In this document: one piece after another, positions 1,959 through 26,836 of the stretch
How positions within the stretch are numbered: the first letter of the stretch is position 1
Layout of the letters: the number at the start of each line of letters is the position of its first letter
Virus record (IMG/VR): IMGVR_UViG_3300042350_003369
Coordinates: 1-26,836 of that record
Strand: one strand, 5' to 3'
Source: a virus
Length of the DNA: 26,836 nt
Made by a program: the position numbers and the translations under genes
Notes under the pieces: model-generated
What the model was told of the DNA's origin: nothing
Seen by the model: only the letters and a program-made list of their open reading frames with translations
Database searches by the model: none

Positions 1959-4712
1959 ATGCGGGTAATCACAGATACGGGCGAACTCCCTTCATTAGAT
2001 ACTATTATTCTTCAGGGTCGTGGTGAGTTAAACTTATATAATCAAACCTTACGATTTAAACCGGGTAAAGATTACACGCATCCTGATTTTAATATCCCGA
2101 TATATAATCCCTCTACACAAACGTATGATTTCACATGGGTAAATAGAGGTCCTTATGTGGCATTAGTATCTCCGAGAGATGGAAGTGTAGGTACTCCAGT
2201 GTGGAGTAGCATTGGGTTAGAATATATTGATAAAACTTTAGCAACAGCCGGTGATGTAATCACTTTTGATGGACTTAATGTAGTTTGGAGTCCTGGCGGA
2301 GGTGGTGGCGGTGGAGGTGTTACGTCTGTAAGCCTTAATATGCCATCTGCGTTTACGGTTGTAGGGTCTCCTATTACAACTGCAGGAACATTTATTGTTT
2401 CAGGAGCAGGAACTTCATCTCAATACATTGATGGCACAGGAGCATTACAGACATTCCCAAGTGGAACTGGATTGCTGACAGCTAACAATGGGTTAACAGA
2501 GAATCCTGCAACTAATGTTCAGTTAGGGGGTTTATTACTTCAAAATACAACAATAAATGCCGACACTTATCTATTTGATGTAATAGGAACAAACAATTCG
2601 GTAGTATTCCAAGTTAAGAATACAAGTGTTACAGGTACAGGTGTTGCCGCTTATTTTGAATCAGCAAGCGATAACGCTATTACTGCTCAATCACTATCAG
2701 GGAAAGCGGCAATATTTGGTTTTACAAATGGCAGTAATTATTCTATTTTAGGACTTACAAAAGCTAATGGTAACAATGTTGTAACATTAGTAAAAACAGC
2801 AAGAATAATAAATTCTGGAAGTGTTGGAGTGGGATTGGGTGGCGCAATAGATATTTCGTTGCCTATTTCATCATCAGCCGTTATTCCAACATCAACTATT
2901 GAAATGAGAGCATTATGGACATCTGTGAGTCCGTTAGATGCGTCTTGGCAGTTGTGGACAACAACAGCAAATTCTTTAACTCAAAAAATGGAAGTTTTTG
3001 CAACAGGGCAATTAAAAATTGATAGATACGGAATTGGAACATTTTTAGGAACACCTGCTTACTCATTAGGTGTTGATGCTACAGGTAATGTAGTTGAGTT
3101 TACCCCTGCAACTGGCGGGGGTGGAATAAAGTCAGGAACAGCAAGTGGAACAAATAATTATACAGTAACTATATCAGGCGTTTCATCCTACACAGATGGC
3201 GATACTTATGTAATTAAGTTTACCAATGGGAATGATGACGATTCTGATATAAATATAAATGGACTTGGTGCTAAGAATCTTGAAAAACAGGCTAATATAA
3301 GGGTAACAGGTGGAGATATTGTTTCTGGTCAAGAGTTAATCATCATTTATGATGGCACTCACTTCCAAACTTTAGGGGTTGCTCCGAATCAATTGTTTGC
3401 ATATGTTACAAACGATGATTCAGTAACAATTACCAAAGGACAACCTGTATATGCCTTTGGTGCAGCAGGGAATAGGATGAGCGTTAAGTTGGCTAACAAT
3501 ACATCAGATAGCACCTCCGCACAGACTGTAGGCGTTGTTTTTAGTTCAAGTATAGCTCCAAATCAAAAGGGATTTATAATTACGCAGGGCGTAATATCGG
3601 GCGTGAACACGTCAGCATATAGTCCAGGTGCGCAATTATACTTAGGTGCAACAGCAGGCACTTTAACTGCTACAAAGCCATACGCCCCGAACCACCTTGT
3701 ATATATTGGAATTGTGGAACGAGCGAATGCAGGTAATGGTCAGATATACGTTAAGCCACAAAACGGATATGAACTTAACGAATTGCACGATGTTGATTTA
3801 ATAACAAACGCTCCTGTAAATAATGACCTATTAACGTATGTTTCGGGAAGTCCGAATTTGTGGAAAAATAGAAGTCTTGGCGCAATATTAGGTGGCACTA
3901 CTTCGCAATATGTAAGGGGTGATGGCACTTTAGCTACAACACCAACTGGTACAGTAACAGGCGTTACAGCTACTTCTCCTATAACATCATCGGGCGGAAC
4001 TGCTCCTGTAATATCTACATCAATGGCAACCAATAGGCTTATTGGCAGAAGCACGGCAGGTACAGGGGTGATGGAGGAAATACAAGTGGGCAACTTTTTA
4101 ACTCTTAGTTCAGGAGTTTTATCGTCAGTGCCACCTATTGAACTATCGCAAGTGTACACAACGGCTTGGAATTTAGCCCCAACAATAATTTTAGCAGCAG
4201 CATCGGGCGGAACATCAACATCCGCAAATCAATGGTATATTATTCCAAAATATTTACCTCCTAATACTTCTATATCAGATATAGGGGTGCGCATATCAAC
4301 ATTATCAAGTTCTCTAACTGGAAGACTTGCAATTTATACGTCAACATACGATTCAACGAATAAAGGGTTTATACCTAATTCAAGAGTGGCAAATTCAGGA
4401 GCATTAACTATTTCAGGCACTGGATTTGTATCATTTACATTGCCATCAACAATACAAGTTAGCGGATGGGTATTTTTTGTAGTTGGATTTACCGCAACAA
4501 CATGTACATTTAGGAATGTCAACAGCAATAGTGTTATTGGGCTACCTGCATTAGTTAATTCGGGCAGTCCATTAAATACAGATACAACAGTAAGGAATGG
4601 GATGTATACTAATACAAGTAATGCAAGAACATCCGACCCCCCTAATCCATGGACAGGAGCATTATCTCAAGTAAATTCAAATATTCCCGCAATATTCTTT
4701 TTTATACCATAA
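1959..4712 (+). CDS. Modular tail fibre / receptor-binding protein, 917 aa
   Basis: This is a virion appendage that probably recognises the host surface. Modules in order: an N-terminal attachment domain (about 1-110, containing GRGELNLYNQ and TPVWSSIGLEYI); a linker of eight glycines (113-120); a repeat unit GVTSVSLNMPS...TSSQYIDGTGALQTFP (120-168); a long beta-rich shaft; a domain with SYTDGDTYVIKF, NINGLGAKNLEK and IIYDGTHFQ (about 390-475); a domain with TKGQPVYAFGAAGN through QNGYELNELHDV (about 490-612); a second copy of the repeat unit (TTSQYVRGDGTLATTP, about 645-660); and a C-terminal beta-rich domain from about 727. The repeat units and the KGQPVYAFGA domain recur, as I recall, in fibres of Bacteroidetes phages. 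The C-terminal domain is the likely receptor-binding part. No chaperone autocleavage motif is visible. It is followed 2 bases later by a small gene. Confidence 0.8.
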   Translation: MRVITDTGELPSLDTIILQGRGELNLYNQTLRFKPGKDYTHPDFNIPIYNPSTQTYDFTWVNRGPYVALVSPRDGSVGTPVWSSIGLEYIDKTLATAGDVITFDGLNVVWSPGGGGGGGGVTSVSLNMPSAFTVVGSPITTAGTFIVSGAGTSSQYIDGTGALQTFPSGTGLLTANNGLTENPATNVQLGGLLLQNTTINADTYLFDVIGTNNSVVFQVKNTSVTGTGVAAYFESASDNAITAQSLSGKAAIFGFTNGSNYSILGLTKANGNNVVTLVKTARIINSGSVGVGLGGAIDISLPISSSAVIPTSTIEMRALWTSVSPLDASWQLWTTTANSLTQKMEVFATGQLKIDRYGIGTFLGTPAYSLGVDATGNVVEFTPATGGGGIKSGTASGTNNYTVTISGVSSYTDGDTYVIKFTNGNDDDSDININGLGAKNLEKQANIRVTGGDIVSGQELIIIYDGTHFQTLGVAPNQLFAYVTNDDSVTITKGQPVYAFGAAGNRMSVKLANNTSDSTSAQTVGVVFSSSIAPNQKGFIITQGVISGVNTSAYSPGAQLYLGATAGTLTATKPYAPNHLVYIGIVERANAGNGQIYVKPQNGYELNELHDVDLITNAPVNNDLLTYVSGSPNLWKNRSLGAILGGTTSQYVRGDGTLATTPTGTVTGVTATSPITSSGGTAPVISTSMATNRLIGRSTAGTGVMEEIQVGNFLTLSSGVLSSVPPIELSQVYTTAWNLAPTIILAAASGGTSTSANQWYIIPKYLPPNTSISDIGVRISTLSSSLTGRLAIYTSTYDSTNKGFIPNSRVANSGALTISGTGFVSFTLPSTIQVSGWVFFVVGFTATTCTFRNVNSNSVIGLPALVNSGSPLNTDTTVRNGMYTNTSNARTSDPPNPWTGALSQVNSNIPAIFFFIP

Positions 4713-5754: not shown

Positions 5755-7692
5755 ATGCCTTGCACATCCGGATTTGTCAATACTGTAGAATTTTCCCCTC
5801 ATGCATTAGGCAAGGAAATTTGTCCGCCAAGAAAAAGTAATGAATATGAATACAGAGAATATTGGAGAATACAGCAAGAGCGTTGTATAAATGGATACAC
5901 GGTTGGTGGCGTAAATATAACGGGAGAGCATTATTTCTATCTAAACTACATTAAAATTCTTCGTGTGGTCGATGGAAGTAAACGTAAAAAATGGTATGTT
6001 CCTAGATTTATTGATCTAGACTATGATTTTTTTCATTCTTATAGAATAGCCCGGTTTATTGAAAACAAGCTTGGATTACCCGTAACAGGGTCAAGGCAAA
6101 GGGGTAAAACCTATAAATCAGCGTCATTGGCAACTTACGAATTGGTATTCCAGCCAAGATCCCAAACTGTAATTGTATCTTACGAATCAGATTATGGATA
6201 TGATACATTTTTGAAGGTTAAGTCAAATTTAGACGGTTTAGTTCATACAGAATTTTTTAAACGTCGTTTAAAGGCTGATGATGAAATGATTAAAATAGGA
6301 TATAAGCTTAGAGATAATCTAACTAAAGAATATATTGAATCTGGCTTTTTATCCGAGCTACATCTTAGAGTGGCAAAGAATAATCCGCAATGCACTATCG
6401 GTTTAACGCCATCTTTGGTATTAAGAGAAGAGGCGGGAAAGTTTAATAATTACGATGCGCAGTATAACTATATGCGAGATCAGATTGTGTCAGAAGGCCA
6501 ATCTACCGGCTTTATACTTGATTTTGGCACAGGTGGTGAAATGACTAAAGGAGGATCATATGGACTAAAAAACTCTATATATGCGCCTGATAAGTATGAC
6601 TATCACGGATTTAATGAAGATTGGGGGGAGCATGGCGAATATTTGCCTAATTCAAAGAAAAAGGTAGGTTTTTTTATTCCGGCTTGGCGCGGATTAATTA
6701 TGGACGATCAAGGTAATTCTATGTATGATAAAAGCATTGAAATCATTAAAGCCAATCAAAAGAAATATGAAGATGATCCGGTAGAATATGCTACAAGGAT
6801 ATCGCAAGAACCTGTAAATATTGAACAATCTTTTTGGATTCCTGGTGAGGATATATTTAATATTCGTTTGTTAAATAAGCGTTTATCTGATATAGTAAGA
6901 ACAGATAGCCTTAATAATATGGTACAAAAGGGTAATTTAGAATGGATTAGAGATAGCAAGGGGAATATTATTGATGTAGAGTGGATTCCTAATATCAACG
7001 GACCGTTTCAAATTATTGAGCACCCTGAATGGACTTTACCGGAAAATCAGCGAAAATTAAATGTAAATAAAAATAATGGGTGGAATGTCTATATATCCGG
7101 ATGCGACTCTTACGATGCCGATTCGTCCACTACCGACTCAGAAGGCTCTATTTTTATCTATAAGCGATTTATCCATCCCGGGGCAACCGGCGATTTATTT
7201 GTAGCGCAATATACCGGGCGACCTGATGCTGATGAGTTTTATGAAGGTACAGCTAAGTTAAATTGGTATTATAAAGCTAGAATGCTTTTTGAAGCTACTA
7301 ATTTAGGTATAAAAACATGGTATATTAATAATAATATGGTGCAATATTTAAAGGAAAAGCCGCAAGTGGCGTATTCTGATATTAAGGATTCTAAGGCTAA
7401 TTACACGTATGGTTTGCAAATGCCAATACATGTTAAGGAATATTGCATACGAGAAACCAAGAAATGGATTGATAAATTGTATGAAAATTTATTTTTTAAG
7501 GATCAAATTCAAGATTTGATTAAATTTACAAGAGAAACTAACCATGACAGAACAATATCTACAATGTTATGTATAGTTCATAATTTAGATACAGTGAGGA
7601 TTAAGGTTGATAATGAAAGTAAACCAACATATAATCATAAATCAATTGTAGTTAAAAAAATTAATGGCGTTCTAAAAAATACTTACAAATAA
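5755..7692 (+). CDS. terL: Terminase large subunit (packaging ATPase and nuclease)
   Basis: This is the motor that pumps phage DNA into the prohead and cuts the concatemer. The ATPase half shows Walker A GSRQRGKT (112-119), a Walker B/catalytic region LVLREEAGKF (221-230, catalytic Glu in the EE pair) and a coupling-like motif GTGG (258-261). The C-terminal half is RNase H-like: CDSYD (450-454) gives the first metal-binding Asp, FEATN (512-516) the Glu, and NHDRTIS (596-602) the last Asp. The stretch YTGRPDADEFYEGTAK (486-501) is typical, as I recall, of crAss-like and related Bacteroidetes phage terminases. At 645 aa the length is normal for the group. The Walker B strand has an Arg (LVLREE) just before the acidic pair. 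It starts one base after the previous stop, and its stop overlaps the portal start (TAATG). Confidence 0.93.
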   Translation: MPCTSGFVNTVEFSPHALGKEICPPRKSNEYEYREYWRIQQERCINGYTVGGVNITGEHYFYLNYIKILRVVDGSKRKKWYVPRFIDLDYDFFHSYRIARFIENKLGLPVTGSRQRGKTYKSASLATYELVFQPRSQTVIVSYESDYGYDTFLKVKSNLDGLVHTEFFKRRLKADDEMIKIGYKLRDNLTKEYIESGFLSELHLRVAKNNPQCTIGLTPSLVLREEAGKFNNYDAQYNYMRDQIVSEGQSTGFILDFGTGGEMTKGGSYGLKNSIYAPDKYDYHGFNEDWGEHGEYLPNSKKKVGFFIPAWRGLIMDDQGNSMYDKSIEIIKANQKKYEDDPVEYATRISQEPVNIEQSFWIPGEDIFNIRLLNKRLSDIVRTDSLNNMVQKGNLEWIRDSKGNIIDVEWIPNINGPFQIIEHPEWTLPENQRKLNVNKNNGWNVYISGCDSYDADSSTTDSEGSIFIYKRFIHPGATGDLFVAQYTGRPDADEFYEGTAKLNWYYKARMLFEATNLGIKTWYINNNMVQYLKEKPQVAYSDIKDSKANYTYGLQMPIHVKEYCIRETKKWIDKLYENLFFKDQIQDLIKFTRETNHDRTISTMLCIVHNLDTVRIKVDNESKPTYNHKSIVVKKINGVLKNTYK

Positions 7693-10220
7693 TGTTGTAT
7701 TCATTTCCATCACAGAATATACCTGAAGCAAATAAAGATTCCTCATGGATGAAACAATGCATTGACGCTATAATTACATTAGGTACGGTTAATGAATATG
7801 AGCGATATCAGGATTTGTTTTGCTATAACATATATAATGGGGTATGGCCTAAAGAAATGTTTGATTATTTAAGAAAAGTGGAAGATTATGAATTTCCGGC
7901 ATATATTAGACACATACCACTACAAAGGCCTCGTATTGATTTACTTATAGGGCAAGAAATTCGCAGACCACTAAAAAACTTTAGAACATATACCACAAAC
8001 AGAGACAATATTAAATTAAAAGAAGACATGCAATTGGAAATGATTATGCAGACAGCTTATGGTGTTGTAGCTGCTAATCAAATGCAGGTAAGTGCTATGC
8101 AACAACAAATTGATGCGGCAAGACAACAGTTGCAACAACAGCAAAGTCAATTAGATCCAGCCACGCAATCGTCTTTAAATGCGCAAATTGTAAATGCTAT
8201 GATGCAGTTGCAATTACAAAGCATGTCCACTCAGCAATTAGCTAATAAAATAAATGAAGAGTTAAAAGCAAAAGAGTTAAATAATAGGCGCAATTTTAAG
8301 ATGAATATTGAAATTAAATCTCAAAAACTATTAAATAATTTAATTGAAGCGTCAGATGCGCATTCTAAATTTGCAGAAGGATTTGCAGATAGTTGGATCA
8401 CCGGTAAAGAGCGATATTTTGTTTATGCTAAAGATTTAAATGTACCTATATCATTAGATAAAATAAATCCCATACGTTCCGCGCATTCTCCTGAAGAAAA
8501 TGCTCGATATATTCATCAATGTCAATGGTTTACGTGGAATGTAGATATGACAATATCACAAATCATAGATCGGTTTGGTCCGTATTGGAGCGCAGAAGAA
8601 TTAAAAGCATTACACGAATCCAGTTCATCATTATTTGATGCGTCAATTAATAACACTTATCAATTTAGTGGATTAAGACAAGAGCAACAGTTTGATATGA
8701 ATGATTATGGGTATAGAACTTTATATAGCGATTTATCCAGAAGCAACTATCAAAGAACAGTGCATTTTACATTATGGCGTTCTCAGCGCAGGATAAATAT
8801 TAAACGATCGGTTAAAAAAGACGATCCGACAGTAACATTCACGCATATTATAGATGATGAAGAAGCAGCAAAAACAGATAAATCATTAATTCAGCATAAA
8901 TATGTAGAAGATATTTATTTTGGTGTGCGTATAGCCGGTAATATATATCGTTGCGGAAAATTACCTTACGTGTATCGTAGTGTTGACAATCCGGGACAAG
9001 CAATACTTCCGGTTTTTGGACATGCTTACAATTCAATAATTAGAAGACCATACTCTGTAGTTTGGGCGACTAAAGATTTGCAAATATTGTACAATCTTGT
9101 CCATTATCACGAAGAACTAATGTTAGCTACAGCCGGACGTAGAGGAATGATTATGGATAAAGCGCAAATCCCAACTGATATGTCTATGGATGAATGGGAG
9201 TATCAAAAGAAAGTAAAGGGCAATATGTACATAAACTCTGCTCAATATTATAATGGCATGAAACCATTATTTAATCAGTTTCAGCAATATGATGAATCAT
9301 TAAGTCCAAGTATACAGTATTTACATGTAGTTAAAACAAAAATTGAGGAGATGTTAGGTAATGCTATAGGTGTACCTAGACAACGATTGGGTGCATTGAA
9401 TCCTGAAGATCCAGTTGGCACATCTAAAATGTCTAATGTGCAATCTTCTTTAGTAACCGATTACAAGTTTTATGAGCACGATATTATTAAAAAACAAGTG
9501 CTTACGCACATGATAAACTTAGCATGGCGTACATATAAAAAAGGATATTACGGTATGTCTATATTAGGCGCAGAAGGTCAGGATCTATTAAGTTTAAAAC
9601 CAGAAGAAATGAGTTTATCTGATTTTGATGTTTTTCTTACAGATAGTATTCATGAAGCTAATAAGTTTGAAGAATTAAAACAAATGGCTGCTGTTGGATT
9701 AAAAACAGGAAATCTTAATTTTAGAGATGTAGTTAAATCTTATCGTTATGATACAATACCAGAACTAGAATCTGCATTAGATCATATGTCTAAACTTAAC
9801 GAAGAAGCGGCCCAGGCAAATGAAGAGCGAAAGCTTCAAATACAGCAACAAATAGAACAAAAGAGAGAACAAATGCAGCAAATACTTCAGGAGCAGAATA
9901 GAAAAATACAAGAATTAGGATTGCAATTACAAGACAAGAATATACAAGTGACACAACAGCATTATCAGCAACAAGACGAGATAGCGCGTATGCGATTAGA
10001 ATTAGACAGGCAAATACAAACAGGTAATTTAGCGGTATCTAAACAAGATGTTGATACAGAGCGTATTATGGAAGCCGCATATTTAGAAGAAGAAAAACGT
10101 CAAGCAGATATGGAATTTGCTATATCGCAAGCAGAATTAGCAATGAACAAAGACACTGATGAAAAGAAAATAAAGGTTGATTTAAAAAAGAAATCAAACA
10201 CGCAACAAATAGGAAACTAA
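7692..10220 (+). CDS. Portal protein, crAss-like, 842 aa
   Basis: This is the dodecameric vertex protein through which DNA enters and leaves the head, and on which the terminase docks. Recognition rests on position right after terL, on length, and on the N-terminal motif RPRIDLLIGQEIRRP (79-93), which I associate with crAss-like portals. Conserved-looking core features follow (KERYFVYAKDLN near 240; the GVPRQRLGALNPEDPVGTSK region near 555-575). Two glutamine-rich coiled-coil regions stand out. One lies inside the N-terminal domain (about 130-190) with runs such as QQLQQQQSQ. The other is the C-terminal tail (about 700-830), very rich in Gln and Glu, ending with a basic KKIKVDLKKK stretch. 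The tail may form the barrel in the head interior. The start overlaps the terL stop by one base. Confidence 0.88.
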   Translation: MLYSFPSQNIPEANKDSSWMKQCIDAIITLGTVNEYERYQDLFCYNIYNGVWPKEMFDYLRKVEDYEFPAYIRHIPLQRPRIDLLIGQEIRRPLKNFRTYTTNRDNIKLKEDMQLEMIMQTAYGVVAANQMQVSAMQQQIDAARQQLQQQQSQLDPATQSSLNAQIVNAMMQLQLQSMSTQQLANKINEELKAKELNNRRNFKMNIEIKSQKLLNNLIEASDAHSKFAEGFADSWITGKERYFVYAKDLNVPISLDKINPIRSAHSPEENARYIHQCQWFTWNVDMTISQIIDRFGPYWSAEELKALHESSSSLFDASINNTYQFSGLRQEQQFDMNDYGYRTLYSDLSRSNYQRTVHFTLWRSQRRINIKRSVKKDDPTVTFTHIIDDEEAAKTDKSLIQHKYVEDIYFGVRIAGNIYRCGKLPYVYRSVDNPGQAILPVFGHAYNSIIRRPYSVVWATKDLQILYNLVHYHEELMLATAGRRGMIMDKAQIPTDMSMDEWEYQKKVKGNMYINSAQYYNGMKPLFNQFQQYDESLSPSIQYLHVVKTKIEEMLGNAIGVPRQRLGALNPEDPVGTSKMSNVQSSLVTDYKFYEHDIIKKQVLTHMINLAWRTYKKGYYGMSILGAEGQDLLSLKPEEMSLSDFDVFLTDSIHEANKFEELKQMAAVGLKTGNLNFRDVVKSYRYDTIPELESALDHMSKLNEEAAQANEERKLQIQQQIEQKREQMQQILQEQNRKIQELGLQLQDKNIQVTQQHYQQQDEIARMRLELDRQIQTGNLAVSKQDVDTERIMEAAYLEEEKRQADMEFAISQAELAMNKDTDEKKIKVDLKKKSNTQQIGN

Positions 10221-10221
10221 T

Positions 10222-12537
10222 ATGAAATCGTTATATATATCCAAATCTAAATCAGCAGGCAAATCTAAATATATGGCGGTTCCTGATCCGACAAAACCGT
10301 ATCATCCAACTCTAAATCCTGATGGATATGGCGGACCAATAATTGTAAATCCTAATGATCCTGCTGGAAGACAAAGATATCAATCTTATCAGGATAGTCT
10401 AATTACATATAACAACGCTCAGCTATATAATAGAGATTTACGTAATTTAATAGATCAGAATCTTACAGATGGTGCTTCGCGTACTCATGATCCATTATAC
10501 TCGACGGGTATGTTTTCAAGTTATGGCTATTCATCAAAAAATGATGCAGAAAAAGCTAAAAATAGATTTAATAATGAGCAAACTAGATTAGCGTCTCAAT
10601 ATCAATTAAATAATAATTTAAATCCTTATAATCATACAGTTGATTTTGTTAATGATTCGTATTTATATTATCATCATCCTCCAGGTTCTTCCAACAATTG
10701 GTATTCAAATGCTGTTGGGTTAAATCCTCAACTGGCAGCTTTCCCAAAACCCCAAGAAGTAATATACGACACAACTACCCCACCTGACCCACCTGACCCA
10801 CCTAACCCACCTGACCCACCTAGAAAAAAAATAAATATATCTTCAGTACCGGTAAAAGACGCCACAACATACTCACCGCCTCCACTACCCCCGCCTAAAC
10901 CTAGACCAATTCCAAGTCCTACTAATCCCAACAAAAATTTATATATTCAATTTCGAGATCCTAAACAATCTACACGCACCAGTCAAGAGTTCATTCATTT
11001 TGGTGATTGGGACACATATAAAGAATTTAATGATGCATTGCAAAATGCAGGCAGAATGTTTAGTGCATCTAGTATGAATATGGCTAAAACAAAAGCTTCA
11101 GCATCGTATGGCGGAACGACTAAAGAGGAAGCTATGGAAATTTATAAAAAATACACTGAACCTAAATCAACCTATCGAACTGGAGGATTATTTAAGAAAA
11201 AGGTGGGTGATAGAAATGATTATTCAAATGGGGGAGTATCACCATTAGTATATAAGCATTCTCCTGGAAAGATGGGTTCGTATGAAATGCAATCTACTAT
11301 ATCCCCGTACAAAACAAAAAAACAAATAAAAAAATATACGGAAAAACCTACAGATCCCTTACAAATAGATTTTTTAAGTAATTATGCAGGAGCATTAGGA
11401 TATAAGTATTCTAAAGATTTTGAATTTCCACAATCGGTTCCTTATGAAGGAAATAAACATTGGAATATAGATAGGTTTATTATTAATGCTCATCAACCTA
11501 GTGAGTTTTTTGGACAGAGTACCCCTTCTACATCATTGAAAGATACAAAAAAAGATGTTTTATATGATATGTATAAATACAATCTTTATCAGGGGCATAA
11601 AAAAGATGATGCATTTAAACAAGCTAAACGTTTTATTAGAAATGAATATACACCTCGAATGAAAGGTGCGTATGCAAAAAACGTCTTAAATAGTAAAAAA
11701 GACATAAATTTGCTAACAACAAGTGTAGATACATTTGCAGATACAAATCCTTTTGCAAGAGTTTATGAAAATAAAGATTTAGATTATTATAAAGGGGCTG
11801 AAAAATATAAAGACCCAAAACTTCGTAGAATTTCTATGGACTACCTTACTGATTTTAGAAAAATGGATAGAAAAGATGCAAAAAATATGATAGGGGGGTG
11901 GATTAATGAAAGAGATCATATAAAAAGTCAATATGAATCTATCCATCAAGCTCAAGATGGTGGAGCATTAGGAGCAGAAGCATTACAACAAAACAAACAA
12001 GAGTATGGCAAAGGAGGATTATTTAAGAAAAAAAACAATAATAGCATCACGCCTAATCCTTTATATAAGTCTAATAAAGATTATGTTTACAACGCTTGGA
12101 GAAAATCTCTACCAGAAAATTTAAGAAATGAATCTGAAGGTTATAATTTAAGAGGAGCTTGGGAAGGAGGGTTAGAGCCTGAATATGTTACTGATGATAT
12201 GGCTTTCCATTTATCTAGTAGAAACCCTAATACAGGAGAAATTTTAAAATCACCTGGACATGATACTTATAACATGGCCATTGAAGGTGATATTAGAATG
12301 GGTTATACTCCAAGAGTAGATTTAAGAACTGGTAAAATATATACAACTAATTCTAATGATCCTGTATTAGAGGGTCCTTTTAAAAATGTTTTTGCTAAAG
12401 GTGGAAAAATGATTAAACGTGCAGATGGCTCATATTCTCAAAGGGGTTTATGGGATAACATTAGAGCAAATAAAGGTTCAGGTAAAAAACCTACAAAACA
12501 AATGTTAGAACAAGAACGTAAAATTAAAAATAAATAA
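10222..12537 (+). CDS. Large unknown virion-type protein with Pro-rich linker, GGLFKKK tags and RGLWDNIR tail, 771 aa
   Basis: Not a family I can name; probably a virion or cargo protein because it lies between portal and capsid genes. The N-terminal 180 residues are rich in Tyr, Asn and Pro. A proline-rich linker follows (187-236), beginning with PPDPPDPPNPPDPP encoded by a 9-base repeat. GGLFKKK appears at 321-327 and again at 598-604, splitting the protein into blocks. The block between them is basic and helical. The block after the second tag contains YNLRGAWEGGLEPEY, DDMAFHLSSRNPNTGE and SPGHDTYNM, and recalls a domain seen in many phage proteins with a YDLRGA...HF...KPxHxTF pattern. A third tag KGGKM (726-730) precedes the C-terminal tail SQRGLWDNIRANKGSGKKPT (739-758), a basic ending I remember from gut-phage virion proteins. 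No catalytic residues could be assigned. Confidence 0.65.
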   Translation: MKSLYISKSKSAGKSKYMAVPDPTKPYHPTLNPDGYGGPIIVNPNDPAGRQRYQSYQDSLITYNNAQLYNRDLRNLIDQNLTDGASRTHDPLYSTGMFSSYGYSSKNDAEKAKNRFNNEQTRLASQYQLNNNLNPYNHTVDFVNDSYLYYHHPPGSSNNWYSNAVGLNPQLAAFPKPQEVIYDTTTPPDPPDPPNPPDPPRKKINISSVPVKDATTYSPPPLPPPKPRPIPSPTNPNKNLYIQFRDPKQSTRTSQEFIHFGDWDTYKEFNDALQNAGRMFSASSMNMAKTKASASYGGTTKEEAMEIYKKYTEPKSTYRTGGLFKKKVGDRNDYSNGGVSPLVYKHSPGKMGSYEMQSTISPYKTKKQIKKYTEKPTDPLQIDFLSNYAGALGYKYSKDFEFPQSVPYEGNKHWNIDRFIINAHQPSEFFGQSTPSTSLKDTKKDVLYDMYKYNLYQGHKKDDAFKQAKRFIRNEYTPRMKGAYAKNVLNSKKDINLLTTSVDTFADTNPFARVYENKDLDYYKGAEKYKDPKLRRISMDYLTDFRKMDRKDAKNMIGGWINERDHIKSQYESIHQAQDGGALGAEALQQNKQEYGKGGLFKKKNNNSITPNPLYKSNKDYVYNAWRKSLPENLRNESEGYNLRGAWEGGLEPEYVTDDMAFHLSSRNPNTGEILKSPGHDTYNMAIEGDIRMGYTPRVDLRTGKIYTTNSNDPVLEGPFKNVFAKGGKMIKRADGSYSQRGLWDNIRANKGSGKKPTKQMLEQERKIKNK
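10780..10821 (+). repeat. 9-base tandem repeat coding Pro-Pro-Asp/Asn
   Basis: CCACCTGAC is repeated about 4.7 times in frame (third copy CCACCTAAC), coding PPDPPDPPNPPDPP. Because the unit is a multiple of three, copy-number changes would only lengthen or shorten the linker. Confidence 0.9.
11182..11201 (+). repeat. 20-base direct repeat, copy 1 (codes GGLFKKK)
   Basis: GGAGGATTATTTAAGAAAAA occurs here and, base for base, at 12013-12032 within the same gene. Identity at all 20 bases, including wobble positions, suggests recent duplication or strong constraint. Confidence 0.9.
12013..12032 (+). repeat. 20-base direct repeat, copy 2 (codes GGLFKKK)
   Basis: Second identical copy of the repeat at 11182-11201, 831 bases downstream in the same frame. 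The flanking bases differ on both sides, so the shared block is sharply bounded. Confidence 0.9.
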
Positions 12538-12539
12538 TC

Positions 12540-14147
12540 ATGAAACTGACGTATAAAAAAGGCGGCACAATGGGTGGTTGCTATAAATGTGGCGGTAAAA
12601 TGCATGCAGCAAAAGGAATGAAAATGGGCGCATGTTATAAATGTGGCGGGAAAATGTATGGCCAGAATGGTATGGTCATGGGTGGCGATCCTCCAGTTAC
12701 AGGTGCGCCAAGTTCTATTCCACAAGGTAAAATTCCTGCACCACCTAATCTATATGGAAATTATACAGCAGTTAATGATAATACAACAAATAAAATACAA
12801 GTAATACCAACTAATAATGAATTAGCATACAATAATTCTATGGCCGATAGACCGGTGATTACTGCGACAAAGCCTAAATCTCAGCCTAAATCTTCATCCA
12901 AAGAGCAAGAATTGGTAATGCAAAAAATTCTTCAAGAAGAGCAAGATAAAATGACTGGACCTTTATTTAGAAAACCTCCGGCGTCAGGTGCAGTTAATAG
13001 TTTAGGTGTCATAGGAGAAAACTGGTTAGCGGAAAATCCTGACGTTGCATTAGCTCTTGCTTTAAGAAGCCCACAAGCATTGGGTTTTTCTTTGGCTACA
13101 CAAGGTGTAAAGCAACTACTTAAAACTGCGGCATTAAACGCACTAAAATTTGGTAAAAATGTTGGAAAAACTTATCTTACTAATCCTTATGTTTATGGCG
13201 CATCGTTAGCAACAACAATGCTACCTAATACAACAAAAGCTGTTGATGGATTTAATAGAAATATAAATCCTAGTACTAAAGATAAACTTAATGTACCATA
13301 TGACACATCAAGATCAAATATTATGACATCATTGGGATATTTATCTGGATTTGGAAGGCTTTTTCCTAATAGATTAATAAGAAACCTATCTAATATTACC
13401 AGTGGCGCTGTTCAAGGTAGTGGCGCTTATGATATATATCAAGGCAATTATGGACAAGGATTTGCTCAACTACTTGCTCCGGGTATTGGTTCTATTGGTG
13501 GTAAAGCTTTAATTTCAGGCATGAGCAAAATACCTAAAGGCAAACCTAATACTTTTTGGAATAAAATTACAACTGGCACTCAAAAAATGGCAGGTTTCTC
13601 TGGAGATAAATCAATAGGCTATAATAAATCTACAGGTAGTTTTACGTCTATGGATAAAAATAAGTATGGTTTTAACCGTAAAAATAGAATTGTATCGCCA
13701 ATGGAGTCGTTTAGAGGTTTTAATCTTAAAAATGTTTTTCCATCAACATATTTATTTAATCCAAAATCATGGAAATCAACTAATTTAAAAACAGATTTAA
13801 ATAAAGTTATTAATGAAAGACGCCAAGTAAAAAATTTAAATCTTGATTTAAAAGAATTTGGTGCAAATACACAAAAAAAGTTAGAGATTATAAAAGACTT
13901 CAAATCAAAATCAGATAAATTTTTAGGTAAGGTTAATAGAGAATATAAAGGTGCATATACATACACTCCTCCTTCTATGTCGTTTAATAATAAGCTTATG
14001 TATAATATGAGAACAAAACCAATATCAACAACGGCTAAGGGATTGGGTTTGTTAGGTGCTAGTGCATTAGCTGGTGATTATATGTTTAATGACAGTAAAT
14101 TATTGAATAAGACAAGAAGTTCTGTAAAAGGTCTTTTTAATAAATAA
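12540..14147 (+). CDS. Unknown virion-type protein with duplicated CYKCGGKM zinc-ribbon-like N-terminus, 535 aa
   Basis: I do not recognise the family. The N-terminus is striking: KKGG (6-9), then CYKCGGKM at 14-21 and again at 32-39. This gives two CxxC pairs 18 residues apart (Cys14/17 and Cys32/35), a layout able to hold a zinc ion. The stretch is Met-, Gly- and Lys-rich and ends at MVMGG near 50. A polar, Pro-rich linker (50-125) leads to a region with small hydrophobic and amphipathic helices: WLAENPDVALALALRS, the YVYGASLATTMLP segment, and a Gly/Ala/Ser-rich stretch with LLAPGIGSIGGKALISG around 310-330. The rest is basic and helical, with a final GLGLLGASALAGDY segment. Amphipathic, Gly-rich stretches of this sort suit an ejected, membrane-interacting protein. 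It starts 2 bases after the previous stop, so the two are one unit. Confidence 0.65.
   Translation: MKLTYKKGGTMGGCYKCGGKMHAAKGMKMGACYKCGGKMYGQNGMVMGGDPPVTGAPSSIPQGKIPAPPNLYGNYTAVNDNTTNKIQVIPTNNELAYNNSMADRPVITATKPKSQPKSSSKEQELVMQKILQEEQDKMTGPLFRKPPASGAVNSLGVIGENWLAENPDVALALALRSPQALGFSLATQGVKQLLKTAALNALKFGKNVGKTYLTNPYVYGASLATTMLPNTTKAVDGFNRNINPSTKDKLNVPYDTSRSNIMTSLGYLSGFGRLFPNRLIRNLSNITSGAVQGSGAYDIYQGNYGQGFAQLLAPGIGSIGGKALISGMSKIPKGKPNTFWNKITTGTQKMAGFSGDKSIGYNKSTGSFTSMDKNKYGFNRKNRIVSPMESFRGFNLKNVFPSTYLFNPKSWKSTNLKTDLNKVINERRQVKNLNLDLKEFGANTQKKLEIIKDFKSKSDKFLGKVNREYKGAYTYTPPSMSFNNKLMYNMRTKPISTTAKGLGLLGASALAGDYMFNDSKLLNKTRSSVKGLFNK
12579..12656 (+). repeat. Imperfect tandem repeat coding CYKCGGKM twice
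   Basis: Two 24-base blocks coding CYKCGGKM start 54 bases apart (12579 and 12633). They differ at a few silent third positions (TGC/TGT, GGT/GGG), so the protein motif is kept while the DNA has drifted, which points to selection on the peptide. Confidence 0.85.
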
Positions 14148-20875: not shown

Positions 20876-21443
20876 AGTTATAGCGGAATATAATGCTCGA
20901 TATAAGAATAACCCTATTGATCAAAGTGATGCTATAAATTGGATATATGACTGTATACGTCATGTTGGCTCAGTAGATAACTATCAACACACAGAAGTTA
21001 AGCTGGATGTTAAAAATCACAAAGTGGCGCTACCTTGTGATGTATATAAAATATCTGCCGTTTTAAATTTAAACAGACATCCATTGGCTTATGAAGATGA
21101 TGGAATATTTCTTAATTTATATGATCCTAAAACAGAAGTGGTGCTTTTACGTTATTGGGCTTTACCTAAAGATGATGATGGTTATCCCTTAATATTAGAA
21201 GAAACAAAAGATGCGGCTGTTCATTTTTTGTTTATGCGCAACACTGCAGAACCTGATTGGTATACCGGTAAAATTAGTGATCAAAAATATCAAATGATTA
21301 ATCAAGAATATCATCGTTTAGTTGGTATGGCTAGGGGTAGTTTACGTCATTATTCACGCAATGATATGGCTAGACATACTACAATAACAAGACAAATGGT
21401 TGTTCCTTCATCTACAGTGTTACAAAATAAAGATCGTAAATAA
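20838..21443 (+). CDS. Putative tail ring / adaptor protein, 201 aa
   Basis: Likely a head-tail adaptor or tail ring. The first half has a helix (YKLVKVNEVIAEYNARY, then AINWIYDCIRHVG) followed by strands (HTEVKLDVKNHKVALPCDVYKI) and a core with VVLLRYWALPKDDDGYPLI, the last of which recalls the beta core of T7 gp11-like adaptors (Y..LP.D.dG.p.i). The helical C-terminus contains AVHFLFMRNTAEPDWYTGKI and ends with a charged tail (about 160-200). I chose the ATG at 20838 (MDQTNYKLVK); ATGs at 20808 and 20814 would extend it by 10 or 8 residues and overlap the basic gene further. The stop lies one base before the muzzle gene start. Confidence 0.65.
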   Translation: MDQTNYKLVKVNEVIAEYNARYKNNPIDQSDAINWIYDCIRHVGSVDNYQHTEVKLDVKNHKVALPCDVYKISAVLNLNRHPLAYEDDGIFLNLYDPKTEVVLLRYWALPKDDDGYPLILEETKDAAVHFLFMRNTAEPDWYTGKISDQKYQMINQEYHRLVGMARGSLRHYSRNDMARHTTITRQMVVPSSTVLQNKDRK

Positions 21444-21444
21444 G

Positions 21445-24400
21445 ATGCAAATAAATGTATTTGATAATGGCGTAAACACAGATATTGATCCGGCAAGAGT
21501 TCCGGCTACGCAATATACAAGCGGACGTAATGTTAGATTAGTTAATGACAGATCTAATGGATTAGTAATCAAGCCATTAGATGGAACGTCATTACAGTTT
21601 GTTATTGGTGGAAATAAAGTACCTATTGGCACTATAGATACACCATACGGATTTTCTATAATATTTTCAAAAGCGCAATCTTCCACTGCTTTTGATGAAA
21701 TAGGTGTTTATCCTGCACCTAATTGTATTGTTAATAATAACCCTAATAGCTTAGGATTTAGTAATCAATATAGGCCATTAAAAAACATATTAAGTACAAC
21801 TGGAGCATTAATTGACTGCATAACTACAGAACTAAATTTTAGCGTAGGTAATACAATAACCGGATTTGTACGTTTAGATGATGATAATACATTTAATATT
21901 TATTTTACAGATAATCGCAACCCTGTTCGTTGTATAAATTCAGGGTTTAAATTAGATGGAACGCAAGCAGATATTAAACGAATTAGTGTTAAGCAATTAC
22001 ATATAGATAAGCTAACATCTATATTTTTAGATACTAATATTCCCGGTAAAATAGATTTATTAAGCGTATCAACAACAGGTAAGCATTTATGCGGAAATTA
22101 TGTTTATTATATGCGATATGTAACAAAATCGTATGATAAAACACCATTTAAATGTCAATCTGGACCTATACAAATAGCTCCGACATCAAACCAAACATAC
22201 GACCAAATATTACAAGCTCATGGAGGAGAAGGTGGCAGACAAACAGATAAATCTGTTTTGCTTAGGGTAAGCGGTGGCTTTAATTCAGATCATAATACAG
22301 ATATACCACTAGATAAAGCATATGATTATGTAGAATTCGCTTATTGCTATAACTATGAAAATGGTGCTAAAACCTTTGAAATTATAGATAAATTATTTCC
22401 AATAAATGGAAATGACACTATAGATGTATTAATTACAGGTGATGAACCTAAAATAGCATCATCTTTATCTGATATTTTATTTAGACATCCGGAAGATCGT
22501 ATTGCTGAAACTATAAAATATCATAAAAGAAAATTATATATAGGGAACACGTCAGTGGAATATCCATTATACGATACTATACCGGGTAGTAATGGTATAG
22601 AAAAAGAACAGTATCTTATTGAATTTGCTAAACGTATTAAAATTAGTTATTTAAAAAATAGAACATCAACTACAGTTGGTAGCAAACTTTTATCATTTGA
22701 TATAATTAGTGAATTAGGAGATATTAATGCAGGATATGGTGGTAATATATACAAGGACGAAAAAAAAACTTATTATAATGTAGGGTATTTTAGAGGAGAA
22801 ACTTATCAATTTGGAATACAATTCACCCTTAATAATGGTCAAGAAACATTGTATTATCCAATGAAAGGGGATGATGAATGGTCTGAAAATAGCAAAGGAA
22901 ATTTTGTAAATGAAGATGGGATATATCGATTTCCTAGTGTATATGATTATCCGTATTATGGAGAAATAGAACCTAATACTAATCATTTAGTTCCTGGGAG
23001 TAATGTATTGCAATTGCTTTTTGTTGAATTTGACATGTCTGATGCTATAATATATCTTAATAACAATCCATTTGCAGCAGATTTTTTTCAGAAATATATA
23101 TCAGGGTATTGTTTTGGAAGAGCAGAACGTAAACCCAATTTGGTGTATCAAGGTTTAATGATGCATGCATTTGATGGTGCTCCATTTGGTGATTGGCCTG
23201 ATAATGTGGCGTATTATTCTATGATAGACAAAGGGCCCGAATACAGAAATGATAAAACATCATATGGGCCTGGAAATGATCCAGATACTCTAACAAATAA
23301 TAATTATCCTCTTAGAAATAGTTTACCTCACAGTCCCGATCAATTAGAATGTATAAATTATGCAATGTATCCTAATGTGACTGGCGGTCAAAATGATATA
23401 TTTTTTGATAGCGATAATGCAGATAGCTCAATGACGCTAAGTAAAAAAAGATTTCCTTTATTTACCCGATTTAATGGTTATTATAAAGAATCTTTAAAGA
23501 TTGAAGATACAGGCTTTTTGCAAAATGCTGAACCAGTTTTGGTTTATCAAACGGTTAGTGGTAAATCTTTTATACCGAGTTACCCTTTTGCTGCATTACC
23601 AGCTATCTTTATTTGGAAGAGAAGAAATGATGGTAATAATTTTGAAGATATTCCAAGAGTGTATTATATAGAGCAATTTTTTGGATTACATCAAAATTAT
23701 TTAAGAGGAGATTACACTGCTACAGAAAGTAACAGTGGTGGGTTTAATTCGTTTTTACAAACACCTAGTTTAAATTATAAAGCTATATTTTCAAATGATT
23801 ATTTTTTTGAAAAGAATATACCTGATGGAAGTTATCATATGCTTATGTTTAGCGCTGTACAATATACCACGTATTGTAGTAAAAAGTTAGACGTCGATGA
23901 TGGATATAGACGTGATTACATGGATGCATCTTTGGAAGATCTCGCCTACGATTCACGTTGCAGACCATATAATTTTGGAGCTGCGCCAACAAGAAATCAT
24001 TTTGTTAAATATCCAAGTTATGGTTATAGCGGCAATACTAATACATTAGGCAATATAGCAGGTTGGCCAATACAAGCATATCAAATTTATGAATGGGAGC
24101 AAGGTGCTAAAGAAGGATTTACATCATTTTTTACACAAGGTGGTGATTTTTCTAAAGATTGTTTGTTTTGGTTTAATTCAGCAAACACGCAATCAGCAGA
24201 AAGAGGTGTAGCTAATCGCTCATTTGCTATTGGCAGGTATATTGGAATTAAATTTGAATTGCCTTATAAAATAGATGAAACAGAATATCCATCTGCTGTA
24301 TCTGGTCGTTGTGGAAGAGAAAATGCGTCACTTAATGCAATATATTTAGGCTCGAATGGTTATTGGGGAGATCATCAAGCACCTCATACAAGAATTCCGT

Positions 24401-26205
24401 CTACTACAACAGGGTCTACAACATATAGTAACCGATGGAGCAATGATCAATTTAATAGAATTGTTAATGTATATCGATATATCCCATGGACAATATATGA
24501 TAAGATGAATAATTCAGAGTATTCTAATGCGTCTTATAATATAAAAAATGATTATGATTTTGCCAAACAACCGTTATTTAAAATAACGCCATTTATAAAA
24601 TATGTAAACAAAAACAGTATATCTCCTAAATATGTTGCCGCAAACGGTGATTGTTTTATAGGTTGTATGGCTCAAAAAATACTCCATAATCCTGAAACTA
24701 CCGGTATACCTGCAGAAAAAAAAGGATGGCAATTCGGGTTGTTAAAAAGACAAGAAACTAAAACAGAATTTAGCGATACCGGATCACCAATAGTTAACTA
24801 TGACGAAATAATTGCAGGATTTGGAAATACTATAATTATACTTACCGAAAATAAGTATAACACAGGAATGCGCGTTAAACGTTTAAGTGCAGATTCTAAG
24901 TTTTGGAATTGGGAATTTATTAATAGAGGTAACATTTCGAATTCAAAAGAGTGGGATTTTTATGATTATTCTGTAATATGGAATAAAAAAGAAGAAGATT
25001 ATTTTAATACCGGTTATAATGTTGTTTTAGGTGATTTATTTGGATTAGGTTATGAAAAGTTAGATCCTTATCGAATTAAAAAAAGAGCTAATCGCATTAG
25101 ATATTCAAAAGATAATATATCTGGAGTGTACACCGATCAAAATAGGATATTCTTACCGGTTGCATTTCAAGATTTAGATTCTAAATATGGTAGCATATCA
25201 GCACTAAGCAGTGTTCAAAATAAAGCAATTGCCGTGCAAGATCACGGTATTGTTGTGCTTGAAATAGATGAACGTTCTGCAGTTCCGGATAATTCAGGCA
25301 GACAATTAACATTGTCGGAAGGCAAACCATTAGGAAGTGATTATTTGGTATTATCAGATACTATTGGCTCACAACATTTACGGTCTATTGTAGAAACGGA
25401 AAATGCTACATACGGAGTAGATGTGTCTAAGTTTAAAGTGTGGCGTATTACAGGTAAAGGCTTTGAAATAATATCTGATACCAAATCCATACGATCTGAA
25501 CTAAATGCTTATTTTAAACAAACATCTCCCGGTGGAACAAACATAGAAGCACATAATATTAATGAATTTGAGGTGGTTGGAGGACATAACAAGCGCCATG
25601 CTGAAGTGGTATTTACTATTAAATATGAACCTAATAGAGAGATTGTTAATAATATTTCATTTATATTTTCTGAGTTTAGTGATTCATTTACGTCTAATAA
25701 AATGGACTATAATGCTAATTTCTATCTTTCCATAAATAATGATTTTATTATGTGTGATACAAGCAGATTGCCGGGATTTGATGAATTTTGGATGGAAAAA
25801 GATAGTGCAATTAAATGTTCATTCTATGGTAATATAAATTCTAGTCATTTAGAAATACCTGTTAATGGTCCAGAGCAGATAAATGCTTTAGTTAAAACAT
25901 TTGATCACTGGGAAGGTATTATGGATGATTCTGTGCCTGATATAGTTTATTACAGAACAAAAAATCAAACATCGCTACAAAATCCATTTGTTCCTACAGC
26001 GGCTAATGAATTATACGTGCTTCCTAAATGGAAAGAAGATAGATGGTTTGTTCCTATAAAAAGAGCAACTACTTCTGTTTCTGGAGGATATATCCAAGGA
26101 AGTATATTAAAAGGTCAATATATATTAATAAAATTAGAGTATTTATCAGGTCAAGATTTTTGGATAAAAAGTATATTTACAGAATATAAACAAGCCATAC
26201 GATGA
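21445..26205 (+). CDS. Giant tail muzzle / stabilisation-type protein, crAss-like, 1586 aa
   Basis: This matches what is annotated as stabilisation protein in crAss-like phages, the protein forming the outer tail (muzzle). The N-terminus (FDNGVNTDIDPARVPATQY, then GRNVRLVNDRSNG and VIKPLDGTS) is the family hallmark. Further on, KHLCGNYVYYMRYVTKSYDKT (around residue 215-235) opens a long beta-rich body with many Asn, Tyr and Gly. Near residues 1230-1330 a second recognisable block appears: YGSISALSSVQNKAIAVQDHG, SEGKPLGSDYLVLSD, then IGSQHLRSIVETENATYGVD, a beta-propeller-like stretch. It begins at 21445 after the adaptor stop; an earlier ATG at 21400 is a read-through of the adaptor end in another frame. 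Its stop overlaps the next start (ATGA). No peptidoglycan-cutting motif was noticed. Confidence 0.82.
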   Translation: MQINVFDNGVNTDIDPARVPATQYTSGRNVRLVNDRSNGLVIKPLDGTSLQFVIGGNKVPIGTIDTPYGFSIIFSKAQSSTAFDEIGVYPAPNCIVNNNPNSLGFSNQYRPLKNILSTTGALIDCITTELNFSVGNTITGFVRLDDDNTFNIYFTDNRNPVRCINSGFKLDGTQADIKRISVKQLHIDKLTSIFLDTNIPGKIDLLSVSTTGKHLCGNYVYYMRYVTKSYDKTPFKCQSGPIQIAPTSNQTYDQILQAHGGEGGRQTDKSVLLRVSGGFNSDHNTDIPLDKAYDYVEFAYCYNYENGAKTFEIIDKLFPINGNDTIDVLITGDEPKIASSLSDILFRHPEDRIAETIKYHKRKLYIGNTSVEYPLYDTIPGSNGIEKEQYLIEFAKRIKISYLKNRTSTTVGSKLLSFDIISELGDINAGYGGNIYKDEKKTYYNVGYFRGETYQFGIQFTLNNGQETLYYPMKGDDEWSENSKGNFVNEDGIYRFPSVYDYPYYGEIEPNTNHLVPGSNVLQLLFVEFDMSDAIIYLNNNPFAADFFQKYISGYCFGRAERKPNLVYQGLMMHAFDGAPFGDWPDNVAYYSMIDKGPEYRNDKTSYGPGNDPDTLTNNNYPLRNSLPHSPDQLECINYAMYPNVTGGQNDIFFDSDNADSSMTLSKKRFPLFTRFNGYYKESLKIEDTGFLQNAEPVLVYQTVSGKSFIPSYPFAALPAIFIWKRRNDGNNFEDIPRVYYIEQFFGLHQNYLRGDYTATESNSGGFNSFLQTPSLNYKAIFSNDYFFEKNIPDGSYHMLMFSAVQYTTYCSKKLDVDDGYRRDYMDASLEDLAYDSRCRPYNFGAAPTRNHFVKYPSYGYSGNTNTLGNIAGWPIQAYQIYEWEQGAKEGFTSFFTQGGDFSKDCLFWFNSANTQSAERGVANRSFAIGRYIGIKFELPYKIDETEYPSAVSGRCGRENASLNAIYLGSNGYWGDHQAPHTRIPSTTTGSTTYSNRWSNDQFNRIVNVYRYIPWTIYDKMNNSEYSNASYNIKNDYDFAKQPLFKITPFIKYVNKNSISPKYVAANGDCFIGCMAQKILHNPETTGIPAEKKGWQFGLLKRQETKTEFSDTGSPIVNYDEIIAGFGNTIIILTENKYNTGMRVKRLSADSKFWNWEFINRGNISNSKEWDFYDYSVIWNKKEEDYFNTGYNVVLGDLFGLGYEKLDPYRIKKRANRIRYSKDNISGVYTDQNRIFLPVAFQDLDSKYGSISALSSVQNKAIAVQDHGIVVLEIDERSAVPDNSGRQLTLSEGKPLGSDYLVLSDTIGSQHLRSIVETENATYGVDVSKFKVWRITGKGFEIISDTKSIRSELNAYFKQTSPGGTNIEAHNINEFEVVGGHNKRHAEVVFTIKYEPNREIVNNISFIFSEFSDSFTSNKMDYNANFYLSINNDFIMCDTSRLPGFDEFWMEKDSAIKCSFYGNINSSHLEIPVNGPEQINALVKTFDHWEGIMDDSVPDIVYYRTKNQTSLQNPFVPTAANELYVLPKWKEDRWFVPIKRATTSVSGGYIQGSILKGQYILIKLEYLSGQDFWIKSIFTEYKQAIR

Positions 26206-26836
26206 AATCTAGCAAAAAATTATATAAAAAGAAAATGCAACCGCCTAAATATGCGATTGGAGCCGTTCTTGCTCCATTGGCTGCGGCGGTAACAACATCA
26301 GGAGTTCCGGCTACAGGAGCTGCAGCTACGGGTGCATTAAGCGCAAGTACATCAGCGGCAATAGCTGGTGCCACTAAAACTGCAGGTGCAAGTGTTACCA
26401 CTGGCGCTCCATATGGAATGCTATCGTCTAATGCAAATTCTAGTACAATTCCTAGTACAATGCAAGGTTTTAATAACATGCTAGGTATTGATCCCACTAA
26501 AGCAGCAGGTGCAGGTCAGATGACTCAGTCTAAAAACGCAAGTAGTAAAGTAAATGATATTATGCAACTTGATAGTATTGGTGATTTAATGAGTTTAAAC
26601 AAACTTCCAATGTTAGCAATTTCCGGGATAAGAGAAAATGCATTAAGAAGACAAAAGGGGAAAATGAACCAAATGAATTTTGCTGATAATATGAACACTA
26701 ATATGGATTCAGGTGCTTATGGAGATTCAGGAATGATGAAAAAGGGGGGAATAATGAACTCGGTGGCTGAACTTACAGGACAGGAGTATATCGTTCCTAA
26801 AGAATTAATACCGTATGCTTTAGCGGCAGGAAACGC
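26202..26836 (+). CDS. Ala/Gly-rich putative cargo (ejection) protein, partial, cut by window end
   Basis: The gene starts by ATGA overlap with the muzzle stop and is open for at least 211 codons to the window end. The N-terminus is basic (MKSSKKLYKKKMQPPKY), then an Ala/Gly/Thr-rich region (about 20-75, GAVLAPLAAAVTTSG and AATGALSASTSAAIAGATK), suggesting a flexible or membrane-active stretch. Near residue 180 come MMKKGGIMNSVAELTGQEYIVPKEL and IPYALAAGN, resembling the SDxGEYVIPADVV..LG.GN motif recurrent in phage ejection and tape-measure-type proteins. The KKGG here is shared with the 535- and 771-residue proteins upstream. In crAss-like phages, large cargo proteins follow the muzzle gene, which agrees. 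The true length is unknown. Confidence 0.6.
   Translation, partial: MKSSKKLYKKKMQPPKYAIGAVLAPLAAAVTTSGVPATGAAATGALSASTSAAIAGATKTAGASVTTGAPYGMLSSNANSSTIPSTMQGFNNMLGIDPTKAAGAGQMTQSKNASSKVNDIMQLDSIGDLMSLNKLPMLAISGIRENALRRQKGKMNQMNFADNMNTNMDSGAYGDSGMMKKGGIMNSVAELTGQEYIVPKELIPYALAAGN

Follow-up and report, generated by a model that had tools for sequence, protein, structure and literature searches.

Genes of the window

The stretch of DNA analysed here (the window) is a 26.8 kb linear fragment, IMG/VR record IMGVR_UViG_3300042350_003369, taken at its full length of 26,836 nt. Three of its proteins carry a short repeated motif centred on two adjacent glycines (GG), which is read below as a joint between the modules of injected cargo proteins.

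The window genes include crAss-type TerL, portal and major capsid protein (MCP), as assigned with PHROGs, and a muzzle protein matching crAss_MUZ (Pfam PF25731, E = 6.6e-38). These four genes identify the window as part of a crassvirus-like phage genome of Crassvirales type, with a TerL at most 31% identical to those of Crassvirales (tblastn). The phage group and the cargo position were fixed by the presence of the muzzle gene. The genes that bear on the motif are as follows.

5755–10220 (+): crAss-type TerL (5755–7692) and portal (7692–10220); PHROGs, TerL also by tblastn
10222–12537 (+): 771-aa modular protein, a mosaic of exchangeable modules, directly after the portal gene; open reading frame (ORF)
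12540–14147 (+): 535-aa protein with a motif-rich N-terminus; ORF
21400–26205 (+): muzzle protein (crAss_MUZ); Pfam PF25731
26202–26834 (+): partial ORF cut by the contig end, 211 aa available; ORF and crAss001 gene order

In crAss001, cargo protein 1 (gp45) is encoded after the muzzle. The ORF at 26202 starts directly after the muzzle gene and so stands in the cargo protein 1 position, while the genes of the 771- and 535-aa proteins come after the portal. The 771-aa protein gave no PHROG or NCBIfam match and no Pfam match above the cut-off. For the 535-aa protein the only relative in viral_contigs was that of the sibling phage L002 (87% identical), and for ORF 26202 none was confirmed there. 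PF25725 (crAss_CARG1) had no match in the window proteins, including the 211 aa of ORF 26202, in which the domain may lie past the contig end.

The motif and the swap breakpoints

The original prediction had drawn attention to lysine/glycine tags in these three proteins. All of the tags were recovered where it had placed them, and the strings are absent from every other window protein. The 771-aa protein has GGLFKKK at residues 321–327 and 598–604 and KGGKM at 726–730; the 535-aa protein has KKGG at residues 6–9 and CGGKM at 17–21 and 35–39; the partial ORF has MMKKGG at residues 178–183. Aligned by eye, the tags read YRTGGLF, YGKGGLF, FAKGGKM, YKKGGTM, YKCGGKM (twice) and MKKGGIM; a single motif, [Y/F/M]-x-x-G-G-x-[M/L/I/F], accounts for all of them. 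Treating them as one kind of tag was thus right as regards the common motif; it does not hold throughout, as the CGGKM copies overlap a separate CxxC element and KGGKM at 726–730 opens a separate mobile module. Lysine, taken as the mark of the tags, proved to be incidental: in relatives its positions are frequently occupied by E, Q, A, N, Y or D, which rules it out as the defining residue. What is conserved in relatives is position −3, three residues ahead of GG, where an aromatic residue or Met stands (Y and M are enriched 4.5–5.5 fold), together with a hydrophobic residue after GG.

11173–11202 (+): joint motif 1, YRTGGLFKKK, residues 318–327 of the 771-aa protein, a swap breakpoint with L002; pattern, L002 comparison
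11221–11241 (+): degenerate joint motif YSNGGVS, residues 334–340 of the same protein; pattern
12004–12033 (+): joint motif 2, YGKGGLFKKK, residues 595–604; pattern, L002 comparison
12391–12411 (+): joint motif 3, FAKGGKM, residues 724–730; pattern, L002 comparison
12552–12572 (+): joint motif YKKGGTM, residues 5–11 of the 535-aa protein; pattern
12579–12656 (+): two CYKCGGKM units, C14-x2-C17 and C32-x2-C35, overlapping the joint motif; pattern
26736–26756 (+): joint motif MKKGGIM, residues 179–185 of the partial ORF; pattern

The three proteins (1,517 aa in all) contain the pattern [YFM][KRAGQE]xGGx[MLIF] seven times, and the remaining 7,363 aa of the window contain it a single time. Shuffling the residues of the three proteins gave a mean of 0.12, and none of 1,000 shuffles reached seven. 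With the looser pattern [YFMH][AKREQNSGDV]xGG the counts were nine and two for the same two sets. KGG alone was matched by 28 of 1,000 shuffles, so that lysine is weak evidence, and GG alone is not over-represented (104 of 1,000 shuffles reached the observed number). Since the patterns were refined after inspection of these and related proteins, the window statistics are no independent test, and more weight was therefore placed on whole contigs.

The positions at which modules are exchanged were located by comparison with the sibling phage L002 (MCP identity approximately 98%), which has a 1031-aa mosaic (L002:3780–6875) in place of the 771-aa protein. Three blocks are common to the two proteins (blastp/blastn), and the sequence between them is unrelated and specific to each phage.

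10285–11196 (+): shared block 1, residues 22–325, 78% protein identity to L002 residues 216–520; blastp/blastn against L002
12085–12348 (+): module of residues 622–709, 47% identical to the post-portal protein gp73 of cr56_1; sequence comparison
12397–12534 (+): mobile C-terminal module KGGKMIKRADGSYSQRGLWDNIRANKGSGKKPTKQMLEQERKIKNK, basic, weakly predicted to be a helical hairpin; viral_contigs relatives, alignment, AlphaFold

Block 1 starts a few codons past LFKSGGVLR in L002 and ends in both phages at YRTGG[L/I]FK. Block 2 (residues 581–604) ends at YGKGGLFKKK, where the DNA homology with L002 stops at base 12033; its start, after QDGG, is a weaker case of a breakpoint. Block 3 (residues 726–771) opens at KGGKM; the DNA becomes homologous again at 12397, where the codon of its first K begins. 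Most swap breakpoints therefore coincide with the tags or are a few codons away from them, and the window and L002 show the trait of polyvalent-type proteins, a multi-domain mosaic with domains exchanged between close relatives. Joint motifs 1 and 2, the two GGLFKKK copies, have an identical 20 nt DNA core, GGAGGATTATTTAAGAAAAA. The Gly codons of the motif vary between copies, so that the motif is not merely copied DNA.

The same arrangement was seen around the module of residues 622–709: in gp73 of the human-gut crAssphage cr56_1 the module is followed by YADGGEI, the counterpart of FAKGGKM in the window. No relatives of this module were confirmed in viral_contigs. The L002 protein begins with a phage-lysozyme module (PF00959, 22.5 bits when scanned alone, cut-off 22.3). 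Its module at residues 780–945 (160 residues) appeared kinase-like by eye, an assignment that was dropped as neither the PDB nor Pfam supported it. L003, at 66% MCP identity, lacks the 771-aa protein and has a 451-aa protein without tags in the position of the 535-aa protein.

The module that joint motif 3 opens is itself mobile. Approximately 43 residues long (RADGSYSQRGLWDNIRANKGSGKKPT..), it occurs at about 75–95% identity across hundreds of metagenomic phage contigs (including L006–L085), with at least 595 relatives confirmed in viral_contigs. It lies at the N-terminus, internally, at the C-terminus or in a stand-alone small protein, and has 22 invariant positions in an alignment of 35 sequences; its AlphaFold model is of low confidence (mean pLDDT 64). 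Searches of 50,697 phage records and of 84,980 prokaryotes (one genome per species) did not find it, no significant family match covered it when the carrier proteins were scanned with Pfam, PHROGs and NCBIfam, and its sequence is printed nowhere in the open-access literature searched. A crassvirus muzzle is present in 31 of the 36 records that bear it.

The CxxC element beneath the CGGKM copies of the 535-aa protein looks like a zinc knuckle. Of the motif copies in the window these alone have CxxC, and a plain zinc finger was accordingly discarded as the full explanation. YKCGGKM is also found in tandem arrays of the cargo protein 1 of relatives. Cargo proteins of L031, L038, L045, L020, L047 and the window repeatedly combine the joint motif with CxxCGG knuckles (CYKCGG, CYECGG, CMKCGG), which are possibly zinc or disulfide joints.

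Two further GG-containing elements were recorded. The first, [ST]HE[EN]GG followed by a hydrophobic stretch, recurs in L010, L031, L032, L035, L038 and L050; it resembles a loop of the C1-type domain described below (GGTHEENP in other relatives) and is the source of some of the His residues at −3. The second is a 917-aa window protein (1959–4712), encoded after a run of small ORFs, which has low-complexity sequence with a run of eight glycines and is possibly a fibre or spike; its GG sites lie outside the joint-motif pattern.

Cargo-type proteins of relatives

The distribution of the motif was measured in nine long contigs of relatives (79–128 kb), a set selected for the presence of the mobile module. 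The cargo slot was set by position: it comprises the three genes that come first after the muzzle, counting those of 250 aa or more. The pattern [YFMH][AKREQNSGDV]xGG occurred at 3.09 per 1,000 aa in the cargo slot and 0.33 elsewhere (9.3-fold), with the higher value in the slot in nine of nine contigs; without the genes that bear the mobile module the cargo-slot rate was still 2.20 per 1,000 aa. An aromatic residue, Met or His at −3 was seen 93 times in the cargo slots (30.1 expected from the GG number and composition) and 140 times in the other genes (106.6 expected).

As the nine contigs had been picked for the module, Azobacteroides phage ProJPt-Bp1, a termite-symbiont crassvirus that had not, was a useful check. 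Its proteins gp25, gp23, gp22 and gp20, a grouping made after the counts were seen, contain 22 motifs over 6,322 aa. The remaining 24,045 aa contain 12, three of which belong to gp19, the probable C1 slot. The motif there is often PRYAxGG, and the motif-rich giants come after the portal, like those of the window. The suggestion that the motif is common to cargo-type proteins from separate loci is thus borne out, and an equal rate in replication or regulatory genes, which was looked for, was not found: in the nine contigs and ProJPt-Bp1 the other genes are at background level. Three gut crAss genomes were decoded with TAG = Q. Cargo protein 1 carries three copies in crAss001, four in cr128_1 and two in cr10_1.

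The motif-rich giants of relatives were linked to cargo protein 1 by its C1 domain. PF25725 lies inside those of L073, L012, G018, G019 and G020, and a profile of the C1 region (profile A2, from 20 relatives) matched gp45 in the PDB (E = 7.6e-21). A core-only profile found the C1 domain in 38 rows, a number in which crAss001 gp45 is counted twice and a few near-duplicates are included. The motif lies within 60 aa upstream of the core in 68% of these rows (29% expected) and within 60 aa downstream in 63% (22% expected); its position around the cargo protein 1 domain is therefore conserved. In gp45 itself the last of the three copies, FAYGGDT (GG 562–563), comes after the segment resolved by cryo-EM at residues 425–552, and FAEGGGL (GG 263–264) is approximately 18 residues past the resolved segment 214–245. 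In the AlphaFold prediction of the C1 region the motifs are in low-confidence flanks of the core (mean pLDDT 57).

Module borders were analysed in 109 non-redundant motif-rich proteins as the ends of shared segments (high-scoring segment pairs; HSPs); for the control, boundaries were rotated inside each protein. Of 1,178 borders, 271 were no more than 5 aa away from a motif (78 expected). This test is biased, and it was therefore repeated with GG masked; with GG and the mobile module masked, 120 of 780 borders were within 5 aa of a motif (49 expected), as against 61 for other GG sites (50 expected). Five of six control words were flat and the sixth, EE, was slightly raised (77 versus 59).

The modules of the motif-rich proteins include matches to amidase, LysM, phage-lysozyme and endolysin families. 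HExxH was found at 22 sites in 20 of the 109 proteins (0.76 in shuffles), in contexts judged by eye to be zincin-like, and nowhere in the window or L002 proteins. Examples are the post-portal gp73 of cr56_1 (L086:11919–13448), with HEMGH and weak metallopeptidase Pfam matches, and gp64 of cr10_1 (L158:5036–6334), also in the post-portal region, with HEISH. No C39 or S78 peptidase was found in 25–26 records, in which the controls worked; C48 gave no match in these records and its search control was likewise silent.

In some gut crassviruses the HExxH gene sits directly after the portal, or next but one to it, which is the region of the 771-aa mosaic of the window; its product could be a maturation or cargo protease. 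HExxH, as YHEAFHxV and variants, is also conserved in the giant vRNAP-associated cargo protein of distant crassviruses, in crAss001 (gp47, L089:35120–42145), L156, L157, L143, G001, G012 and G018, and this signature is reminiscent of the metallopeptidase domain described in the virion RNA polymerase (vRNAP) of phage N4.

Role of the motif

The reading preferred here is that the motif is an inter-module joint in modular, injected cargo proteins of crassvirus-like phages, and this explanation as a whole is given a probability of about 0.6. Its first part, a joint in cargo proteins, is very probably correct: the motif is concentrated in cargo-slot proteins, is placed at module borders, stands on both sides of the C1 domain, and the breakpoints coincide with it. 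A role of the motif in docking or adhesion falls somewhat short of an even chance. The joints would be regions without a fold, thanks to which a large cargo chain of many domains could be kept at the portal and then pass through portal and tail module by module, as the structure of gp45 suggests for gp45 itself. The aromatic or Met and the hydrophobic residues may be recognised as contact sites by the interior of the portal or tail or by other cargo chains.

Several points weigh against this reading. The preferences at −3 and +2 are strong and yet not absolute. The link of the motif proteins to the virion is by homology to gp45 and not by experiment, and the three window proteins have no C1 match (one is truncated), two of them following the portal and not the muzzle. 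Selection for the mobile module and a slot set by position both shaped the nine-contig test. The Oafivirinae cargo-slot genes examined showed no enrichment; some crassviruses therefore do without the motif, which is widespread but not universal within the order. The motif itself can introduce a bias into the HSP ends, and at 10 aa in the masked test other GG sites rose as well (155, 91 expected) as did the motif (213, 87 expected), so that masking may create part of the border effect.

The motif might instead be a mere flexible Gly-Gly spacer, a passive linker or recombination joint spread by module exchange at short repeated DNA; we regard this as doubtful. The shared 20 nt core of the two GGLFKKK copies and the sibling swaps at the joints agree with it, as do the flanks of the C1 core, for which the AlphaFold model predicts low confidence. 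A spacer, however, needs neither an aromatic residue or Met at −3 nor a hydrophobic residue after GG, the Gly codons of the motif vary, and the motif recurs in phages as distant as the termite-symbiont phage with its PRYAxGG. Tandem heptads such as YKCGGKM-YNFGGQM-YNMGGSM also occur in the cargo proteins (nine matches to the heptad-array pattern), and it is because of these arrays and the conserved aromatic or Met and hydrophobic residues that a contact site is favoured over a spacer.

The main rival is a processing code: a phage peptidase, for which the zincin-type modules of the same proteins are possible candidates, would cut a cargo polyprotein into its domains at the motifs. The placement between modules would suit cleavage, and polyvalent proteins have been proposed to undergo processing by zincin-like peptidases (PMC5512222). 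Cleavage keeps a share of the probability because HExxH signatures are common in motif-rich proteins (the 20 of 109) and are seen as HEMGH in cr56_1, HEISH in cr10_1 and YHEAFH in crAss001 gp47. That share is small. HExxH is absent from the window and L002, the searches for C39 and S78 were negative (as was that for C48, with its silent control), and tandem heptad arrays make poor sense as cut sites, being easier to reconcile with multivalent contact than with one point of cleavage. Published work on crAss001, in the portions drawn on, has gp45 as one cargo protein of 90.8 kDa and leaves cleavage unmentioned. The N4 vRNAP, which bears such a peptidase domain, is packaged uncut.

A DNA-binding signal, with basic Lys/Gly tags condensing or holding the packaged genome, had been among the roles suggested at the outset. 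The window has lysine-rich copies and a basic C-terminal module, but Lys at −1 or −2 is just one of several common residues, acidic and neutral ones are frequent in relatives, and YADGG and FAEGG are not basic, which makes this role very improbable. Chance sharing of short strings by Gly- and Lys-rich proteins, for which the count of GG alone might speak, has next to no likelihood given that the full motif is far above the shuffles and is localised to cargo-slot genes in the nine contigs and ProJPt-Bp1.

Under the preferred reading of the motif as a joint in cargo, an exchangeable payload code is conceivable: any domain bracketed by [YFM]xxGGx[MLIF] could be plugged into the cargo, loaded, delivered and possibly cut free. 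This extension is tentative, and we hold it to be unlikely in that general form.

Short targeting tags and GG cleavage sites are known from other viruses. The capsid-targeting sequences of T4-like phages are N-terminal tags on internal head proteins, which are cut by the prohead protease at acidic sites; the tags here are likewise short, but they are repeated, lie inside the proteins and are centred on GG, and the search for an S78 protease was negative. The GG-X sites of adenovirus and similar viruses, an analogy only, lie in polyproteins inside the virion and have a hydrophobic residue a short distance ahead of the GG. They are cut by C5/C48-type cysteine proteases; no C48 match was obtained here (the search control being silent), and the hydrophobic residue stands at a different position.

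Of the known kinds, crassvirus cargo protein 1 and phage polyvalent proteins come closest. Like cargo protein 1 (phi-crAss001 gp45, PF25725), the motif-rich giants of relatives contain the portal-bound domain of gp45, and gp45 has its three motif copies; unlike gp45, which has 842 aa and few inserted modules, they reach 2,084 aa and up to 26 motifs. The two complete motif-rich proteins of the window differ from cargo protein 1 in following the portal and in lacking a C1 match. The joint motif is not reported in the part of the crAss001 structure paper drawn on. Polyvalent proteins (Iyer et al., 2017; PMC5512222) occur in phages and conjugative elements and are presumed to reach the cell together with the DNA; they are similarly large mosaics with swappable enzymatic domains, HExxH zincin-type peptidases and cell-wall enzymes. 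The main text of that paper does not contain the words crAss, linker or glycine, and the portion drawn on reports no shared joint motif. Neither the motif nor its link to module exchange was found in the open-access literature searched. The joint motif thus seems to be undescribed, in proteins of known kinds (crassvirus cargo and polyvalent-like mosaics).

No other viruses of the human gut are as abundant as crassviruses (PMC10172136). As the motif can be traced to the solved gp45, the loading of megadaltons of protein and their passage through a narrow tail become testable by point mutation and by examining gp45 in virions. The motif also offers a sequence handle for injected payload domains, such as lysozymes, amidases and HExxH peptidases, in uncultured phages.

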